In this document: piece by piece, positions 31,640-33,806 of the stretch
Numbering within the stretch: the stretch's first letter is position 1
How the letters are laid out: each line of letters starts with the position of its first letter
DNA from: Lota lota
Taxonomy: Eukaryota; Chordata; Actinopteri; Gadiformes; Lotidae
DNA length: 64,000 nt
Assembly: GCA_026745465.1 (NCBI GenBank)
Contig: JACYXH010000429.1
Coordinates: 5,813,833 to 5,877,832, forward strand
Direction of reading: 5' to 3'
Translations under genes and position numbers: made by a program
Notes under the pieces: model-generated
The model's input: the letters and a program-made list of their open reading frames with translations, nothing else
Told to the model about the DNA's origin: nothing
Databases searched by the model: none

Positions 31640-33806
31640 TTTTCAAAGCGAATATTTACACTCTGTATGCTGGACCAGAGATTTACGTTTCAGAAGGGCA
31701 GTGATCGCACAGTGCCTTTACCCATCCTGTCATCCTGTTTGACACAACCTGCACTGCAAACACTCACACAATTAATGAATGAGGTTGTAGTTATGCTGTC
31801 TTGAAAAAGAACAATACCAATTTGTGTGCTACATAATATTATTAAGCTACACATGATACATGTTTTTTTATTAGGCACCATTACAATCAAACAATGTGAA
31901 GGGAAGGACGAGAGGAGACAAACTAGTGATTCATACAGGAATTATTGGAATCCCATGAAGAAAGTTGGACAGAGGAACTAAGAAACGACCTCCCTCACAG
32001 CTACCAGTGTCATGGAGATTTAGTTCTGCTAGCAGATTATTGTTCCTCTCTACCAGTATGGAAGAAAATCAGTAATATAGTCCTTTTTAAAACGACTGTT
32101 AGATAATGTCAATTAGTTTGCAAACCTGTTGATTAATGCATGCATATTTTAAACTACCCCAGGTAAGGATTTGTGGCCAGCGGTTGCAAAAGGCATGGGT
32201 GGGAAACGATGATGAGATGTGTGTCCAGAGACAGATTCAGAACTCTATGTTGCTAGGAGACCACAGCTGGGTGACGCATGTTGACAACGGAATCCGGTAA
32301 CAAGGCTCTGATAAATTTAGAATATATTGAACACTGAAAATGTGACCCTGGTACTGTTCGCCAATGCACACCTTGTTATCACAAAGAACCCAACACAATT
32401 ACTGAATAAGTTATACGTTGTTTTTTACTTATTTAGATAATAAAGTTGTATCATACTGTTGTGTATATATATTAATGAATATTGTTACTGGTCTTCTGAA
32501 TCCCCCGCCCAACAACACACACACACACACACACACACACACACACACACACACACACACACACACACACACACACACACACACACACACACACACACAC
32601 ACACACACACACACACACACACACACACACACACACACGCACAGCAGTAGTTAACTTTGGGAGCACAATGAGGGATCAGGGTAAAACGATGTGTTTTATT
32701 GCCCAGCACAGTTTTCTTTTTTCTTTTTTTTTTTGATATAGCTTAAATGTTACCAAATCAATGTTCTCATCTGGAAACATCACAGAGAAGCTCCAAATTG
32801 CTGTGTTTGACTGCAAAGGAGAGACTGTGGTGGATTTGTATACAGGTAGTAATGGAGGATGTCAATATGTTAAACACTGAAACGGTTTGCAACAAGAAGT
32901 TGCAATTTCCTCCTGTTCAAATGAATGGATTATAGTTAAAGTGTACGTGTCACGCATGCAATCATACTAGTACAACATGAAATAAATGCTTTAAACATTT
33001 ATTTATTTTCACTCTAAAAAATATTACTTTTCAGTTTGCATATTTCTTTTATTGAACTTGCATCAAGGACGGTGGTGTACCTTTTGATAATCATTTCAGA
33101 TGTGTGTTTGGCCTAGGTATCGGGTACTTTACACTGCCATATTTAATGCACGCTAGTGCAAGCCACGTACACACTTGGAAGTGGAACCCTGATGCGGTGA
33201 CGGCTTTGTGAAGAAATCTTGAGGAAAACTTTGTGCAGGATCGCTGCACAGTTCATCACAAGGACAACAGAACAGTGAATGTCACATTCTTTCCAAGGTG
33301 CATCGGTGTTAATCCTGTCCTGTTATTGTCAACGTGAGATGTCAAACTTGGTCTCACTGGCCTTATCTGAATCTCTTCGTACATAATAAATAATGATTAT
33401 GGTTATCATGTTACGTTTTTGGGTCAACGGAAATGTGCATGGTTTATTTGCTATTGGTTTAAGACAGTTCCTCCCCAGCTCTGAGGAGGGCTGGCCCATG
33501 GTCTTCTGTCTGCTGAGGAGTATGACTGGGAGCGTCTTGCACATCCACCACAACATTACCTCATCGTTGCAGGGCCCTGCGACGGACACTCCACATTTTC
33601 ATGCTGAGGCTCAGGGGCCTCCAGCCAAAAGGAGCAACAGAGAGGTTTGGCAGGCTTGGGCCAATGACATGGCATGCTGCATCGCCCGCATGTTAAAGGA
33701 CTCCACTGGCAGGTCATGGAGGTCGACCGTGCGGCACATAGAGCATGTCAAGTCGTATGCGCCTTGAATTCACCACAGTGTGTTGGATTTGGAGTGCAGG
33801 CTACTC
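31640..33806 (+). pseudogene. trmt12: Decayed tRNA wybutosine-synthesizing protein 2 (TYW2) gene
   Basis: Consecutive segments match TRMT12/TYW2, the aminocarboxypropyl transferase of the wybutosine pathway for tRNA-Phe. 31667-31785 reads MLDQRFTFQKGSDRT then VPLPILSSCL. 31936-32083 reads ESWTEELRNDLPHSYQCHGD. 32163-32296 holds LLGDHSWVTHVDNGI. 32742-32845 holds MFSSGNITEKLQIAVFDCKG. From 33117 come the SAM-site GIGYFTLPYL and later WNPDAVTAL. 33455-33767 carries LPSSEEGWP, VLHIHHN and HVKSYAP. Splice sites between 32296/32742 and 32845/33117 are in phase, so this is not a processed copy. Damage: an in-frame TGA at 33209-33211 where R is expected, a TGA at 33765-33767 about 13 residues before the ancestral end (IHHSVLDLECR follows it), a frame break in the 31790-31936 region, a scrambled stretch before LPSSEEGW, and no recognisable N-terminus. 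A functional copy elsewhere, or assembly error at one site, cannot be excluded, but several independent lesions favour a pseudogene. Confidence 0.85.
32514..32640. repeat. (AC)n microsatellite inside the trmt12 relic
   Basis: About 62 AC units in the intron between the 32163-32296 and 32742-32845 remnant exons. Confidence 0.97.

Follow-up and report, generated by a model that had tools for sequence, protein, structure and literature searches.

The trmt12 locus and its neighbours

The window analysed here is a stretch of 64,000 nucleotides of the burbot, Lota lota, in which a three-frame reading of 31560-33860, together with a map of the recognisable pieces, places a decayed trmt12/TYW2 gene at 31667-33824 of the plus strand. 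The locus lies between genes read as zdhhc9 and sytl4, and its exons, introns, and flanking genes are listed below, with the basis of each assignment.

18815..29000 (approximate), minus strand: zdhhc9, with a DHHC domain (1.7e-17); named by reading
31667..31783, plus strand: putative N-terminal exon piece of TYW2, open; assigned by likeness to vertebrate TYW2, without a library match of its own
31784..31874, plus strand: GT-AG intron, phase 0; ends read in the sequence
31875..32071, plus strand: TYW2 exon made up of pieces b and c, between which the frame jumps (31940/31942); TYW2_N_2 match for 31930-32073, piece b putative, by likeness to vertebrate TYW2
32072..32162, plus strand: GT-AG intron, phase 1; ends read in the sequence
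32163..32296, plus strand: TYW2 exon (pieces d, e, and f), with two frame jumps; joined PDB alignment, no Pfam match alone
32297..32741, plus strand: GT-AG intron, phase 2, with a (CA)n array; ends read in the sequence
32742..32845, plus strand: TYW2 exon ending ...VVDLYTG; PF02475 match for 32737-32880 alone (E 9.3e-5)
32846..33116, plus strand: GT-AG intron, phase 1; ends read in the sequence
33117..33283, plus strand: TYW2 exon, with an in-frame TGA at 33209-33211 and Lys in place of an archaeal Glu; Pfam, PDB alignment, and piece map
33284..33476, plus strand: damaged linker, a decayed intron or an insertion; PDB alignment and frame reading
33477..33824, plus strand: last TYW2 exon, with an in-frame TGA at 33765-33767 and the final TGA at 33822-33824; position, whole-genome self-match, and likeness to vertebrate TYW2
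36168..42205 (approximate), plus strand: sytl4, with FYVE_2 and C2 domains; named by reading

The initial annotation of this DNA placed the gene at 31640..33806, which is the correct locus, with ends that are corrected here to the first recognised codon (31667) and the terminal TGA (33822-33824). It also counted two in-phase GT-AG introns, of which the in-phase GT-AG character stands, while the number rises to four, each joining the flanking pieces in phase. In the case of intron 32297..32741, the phase-fitting acceptor lies two codons within the expected coding sequence. A long (CA)n array of 64.5 copies occupies 32515-32643 of this former intron, and the window has several such arrays.

When ten frames of the window were compared with Pfam, seven matched SAM_2 (just below the cut-off), DHHC, FYVE_2, C2, Sushi, Tetraspanin, or Spot_14, one matched a Tc-type transposase, and the other two had no match. 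The genes of the window are read here as sash3, zdhhc9, sytl4, srpx2, tspan6, and mid1ip1. Fragments of a Tc1/mariner-type transposase are present on the minus strand at 16503-17627, between the sash3-like and zdhhc9-like genes, with an HTH_Tnp_Tc3_2 match for 16910-17407. The possibility that the window holds a tRNA or another RNA gene was rejected, as ARAGORN and Rfam returned no matches at their default thresholds.

Identity and decay of the TYW2 remnant

Ordered TYW2 pieces were read at 31667-31783, 31875-31940, 31942-32070, 32165-32209, 32218-32244, 32241-32294, 32737-32844, 33116-33208, 33212-33283, 33477-33764, and 33768-33821. The first two are putative, assigned only by likeness to vertebrate TYW2. 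The ordered fragments described in the initial annotation are borne out on the plus strand by Pfam, PDB, and whole-genome matches. Taken unjoined, three of five stretches have a TYW2-type Pfam match, in all cases below the curated cut-offs: 31930-32073 matches TYW2_N_2 (E 2.8e-5; 24.6 bits, against a cut-off of 27.7), 32737-32880 matches PF02475, the TRM5-TYW2 family (22.9 bits, against a cut-off of 28), and a further match to PF02475 stands at E 0.012. No Pfam match was returned for 33390-33764 or 32133-32297, each taken alone.

The joined reading matches PF02475 at E 1.5e-20, above the cut-off, and the search of the whole genome with this family, in which no pieces are joined, flags the same locus at E 2.4e-4, also above the cut-off. 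Among the PDB structures, the joined reading is closest to PH0793 (2.1e-18), followed by MJ1557 (3.2e-14), which we take to be a TYW2, with Trm5b (2.5e-8) and MJ0883 (1.7e-5) behind both. PH0793 is itself a TYW2 (PMC3386263). The Pfam match and the PDB ranking place the remnant in the PF02475 family, closer to TYW2 than to Trm5, and its identity to the burbot's own trmt5 is only 21% over 94 aa. A C-terminal stretch resembling KSYAP..H.VLDLE scores 2.0 bits against archaeal TYW2, which is not significant by itself. The TYW2_N_2 model was rejected as specific to TYW2, given that trmt5 exons match it too (e.g., 2435-3055 on the minus strand of region L001), and its reach is wider than its name.

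No continuous TYW2 reading frame runs through the locus. Both of the in-frame TGA codons claimed initially, at 33209 and 33765, were seen in the sequence, and the claimed frame breaks were located as three jumps, at 31940/31942, 32209/32218, and 32244/32241. In the exon at 32163..32296, two TGA codons follow piece d in its own frame. The damaged linker is 193 nt long, against roughly 50 nt (an estimate) suggested by the archaeal alignment, and no TYW2 start exon was recognised at the locus by eye.

The acidic AdoMet-ribose residue of TYW2 is not present, and the PDB alignment of the joined reading sets a Lys against the Glu of PH0793 and MJ1557. In human TYW2, E265 is essential, and the E265A mutant is inactive (PMC3386263); on our reading of the alignment, we take the Lys of the burbot remnant to stand at the position of E265. 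We infer that the locus makes no TYW2 protein now. The first 96 codons of the last exon are open, which has a probability of about 0.013 by chance at its composition, so the decay is consistent with one that is not ancient.

Copy number, genomic position, and the other wybutosine genes

The genome searched was the fish's own assembly (575,287,041 bases in 867 contigs), a single assembly that may be incomplete. The joined TYW2 peptide returned eight matches at E<=10, six in the TYW2 locus and two outside it, on contig C129 (E 0.27) and at C315:53166 (E 5.06). The PF02475 search recovered trmt5 (C315, with an open 288-aa frame), the TYW2 locus, and a match on C396 (E 3.8e-4) that we read as an arginine methyltransferase, while the TYW2_N_2 search recovered two trmt5 exons and the TYW2 locus. 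No second TYW2 copy, functional or decayed, was found in the 575-Mb assembly with the joined peptide, PF02475, or TYW2_N_2; the search for an intact copy proposed in the initial annotation came back empty, and its alternative of a fish duplicate that died found no support. With no other locus in the assembly recovered by the joined peptide at a better E than 0.27, the pseudogene is read as unitary, rather than as a dead duplicate. A processed copy was rejected, given the four phase-consistent GT-AG introns, and the intron-containing pseudogene first described is upheld as an unprocessed gene with its introns kept.

Mammalian TRMT12 is a single exon, and the initial annotation had suggested that the intron-bearing copy may mark the ancestral position from which the mammalian retrogene arose. 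A table of the chicken GGA4 lists NOX1, CSTF2, TRMT12, SYTL4, SRPX2, TSPAN6, and TNMD (PMC10035218), and a QTL interval of the nine-spined stickleback holds Xpnpep2, Trmt12, Zdhhc9, Sash3, and Sytl4, in a list that does not state their physical order (PMC4880927). These lists, set beside the neighbours in the window, indicate an orthologous position for the burbot pseudogene. TRMT12 has been named a retrogene, and is tied to chromosome 8 by the title of a paper cited in the same source (PMC4219774). Because TRMT12 occupies the same neighbourhood in two distant vertebrates, and is called a retrogene, the place beside sytl4 is read as ancestral and the mammalian copy as having moved, in line with the suggestion. 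The burbot locus lends support to a departure of mammalian TRMT12 from an ancestral place of the X type.

The enzymes of the pathway act in the order TRM5, TYW1, TYW2, TYW3, and TYW4 (PMC3386263), and TYW5 acts further in humans (PMC4810244). A query with human TYW5 returned nine rows at E<=10, the top one a JMJD5-like gene (1.9e-5), and the second and third (E 2.4e-4 and 0.006) adjacent exon remnants at C637:1342602-1342963. Two in-frame TAA codons interrupt this remnant, which among PDB structures comes closest to human TYW5, 3al5 (8.7e-19; the next is at 4.4e-8). In the human genome, MAIP1 adjoins TYW5, and the minus-strand frames beside the remnant are read as maip1. The Cupin_8 family search of the genome (E<=0.01) missed the TYW5 remnant, which shows that a search of this kind can miss decayed genes, and an absence of TYW5 drawn from Cupin_8 alone was overturned by the direct query. 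The nine Cupin_8 matches fall in five other genes. PDB matches identify three of them as HIF1AN, JMJD5, and JMJD7, and the remaining two are read as HSPBAP1 and JMJD4.

No TYW3 match was found in the whole assembly with PF02676 at E<=1 or with the human protein at E<=10; an empty answer of this kind is evidence of absence only beside a genome known to match. When human TYW3 is cut into pieces of 58-78 residues, these still match PF02676 with 43-80 bits, and extrapolation from the PF04072 search puts E 1 in this genome at about 17 bits. For LCMT2/TYW4, the PF04072 search of the genome found one exon, read with its neighbours as LCMT1, and the same caution holds for this search. The only exon that a query with LCMT2 itself recovered lies on that contig at a distance of 3 kb, and presumably belongs to LCMT1 too. 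With PF04072, a 55-residue piece of LCMT2 reaches no more than 23.8 bits, and the search could overlook an lcmt2 that is diverged and split into exons. In humans, LCMT2 adjoins ADAL; no LCMT2-like frame was seen by eye in the ~1.2 kb between adal and a csk-like gene. The adal-like exons (L020 722-8330, minus strand) are followed upstream by this csk-like kinase gene.

As controls, the same search gave 11 exon matches of the TGT family in two gene clusters, presumably QTRT1 and QTRT2, as well as two adenosine-deaminase-type genes, which we read as ADA and ADAL, together with LCMT1 and the five other cupin genes. As it found all of these, the search is sensitive to exon-split tRNA-modification genes.

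Upstream in the pathway, the TRMT5 exons are open, including the 288-aa frame on C315, as exons seen rather than a whole assembled gene. TYW1 is represented by a PF08608 exon (E 1.2e-15) and by six open exons that were located through TYW1 motifs and span C96:2469955-2499464; when joined, they match TYW1 structures at 1e-45 over query residues 29-238 of 308. Piecewise, none of five TYW1 pieces matched Pfam, although the PF08608 exon had matched in its separate search. Three motifs of the flavodoxin half were not found in the 49.5 kb around tyw1, and TYW1 is shown intact in its catalytic half only. With TYW5 broken as well, TYW3 and LCMT2 undetected, and the catalytic half of TYW1 kept, the locus appears to reflect pathway loss, and not only the movement of a gene.

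Interpretation and comparison with known systems

It is likely that the locus is the orthologous trmt12, dying in place as a unitary, unprocessed pseudogene, and that its loss is part of a wider breakdown of the wybutosine pathway in the steps that follow TYW1.

Other explanations of the locus have to be weighed against this evidence. A functional trmt12 may lie elsewhere, in which case the locus would be a dead second copy, such as the teleost genome duplication could have left; duplicates are common in fish, and the assembly may be incomplete. No second copy was found in the 575 Mb with the joined peptide or the two families, however, even though the decayed copy was found strongly, and a spare copy would not explain the tyw5 relic or the undetected tyw3 and lcmt2, which makes this unlikely. 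The exons might, alternatively, be transcribed and spliced around the lesions, to give a regulatory RNA or a working protein of reduced length, as the four splice pairs are still phase-consistent, but the TGA at 33209 falls in the core AdoMet domain, an earlier exon has two frame jumps, and the ARAGORN and Rfam scans were empty, so this reading is more doubtful still. The least probable is a working gene that looks damaged only through errors of sequencing or assembly: the frame jumps could be long-read indel errors, but such errors sit poorly with the stop substitutions, the Lys in place of the archaeal Glu, and the 193-nt damaged linker, while the neighbouring genes keep recognisable domains, and a second gene of the pathway carries two TAA codons.

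With trmt12 dying in place, wybutosine synthesis is predicted to stop after TYW1, which would leave imG-14 (4-demethylwyosine) on a cytosolic tRNA-Phe that is without yW, or m1G instead, if TYW1 is not used there. Once TYW2 was lost, the enzymes that act after it may have been freed from selection, while TYW1 would stay constrained. The fish probably has a shortened form of the pathway known from yeast to humans. The broader proposal, that in this vertebrate the pathway to wybutosine has been cut off behind its second step, with TYW2 and TYW5 ruined, TYW3 and TYW4 gone, TYW1 constrained, and imG-14 on the tRNA-Phe, has, in our judgement from these gene remnants, about an even chance of being right. 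To our knowledge, an imG-14 end point is not known for a vertebrate.

Wybutosine is a complex base in phenylalanine tRNA, and is credited with keeping translation in frame at Phe codons. If the proposal is true, selection would keep only the tricyclic base and not its side chain. A fish without wybutosine would offer a natural test of which part of the base is important, and of how frameshift-prone Phe codons evolve in its absence. The title of one paper names TYW2 loss as the inducer of ribosome frameshifts in colon cancer (PMC7456070). Among the matches listed in a literature search of open-licence papers, none described a fish genome that has lost TYW2.

In comparison with the TRMT12/TYW2 enzyme, the burbot locus has broken frames, stop codons, and Lys for a conserved Glu, and cannot encode the enzyme. 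The archaeal Taw2 proteins PH0793 and MJ1557 have the N-terminal and PF02475 domains in the same order as the burbot remnant. Mammalian TRMT12 belongs to the same protein family, but is called a retrogene (PMC4219774), whereas the burbot copy keeps its introns at the ancestral place. Compared by gene list only, the chicken TRMT12 on GGA4 has the same neighbours (SYTL4, SRPX2, and TSPAN6), as does the stickleback Trmt12 (Zdhhc9, Sash3, and Sytl4), and both are listed as ordinary genes (PMC10035218; PMC4880927).

Loss or shortening of the pathway, as proposed for the burbot, is also known from other organisms. In the account given in PMC7761594, Drosophila, Bombyx, and a cyprinid, the tench (Tinca tinca), have only m1G37 and no wyosine-pathway genes, while Torulopsis utilis has imG. 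A fish that lives without wybutosine would make the old report on the tench testable at the level of the genes. In contrast with Drosophila, Bombyx, and the tench, which are described there as having no wyosine-pathway genes, the catalytic half of TYW1 is open and conserved in the burbot.
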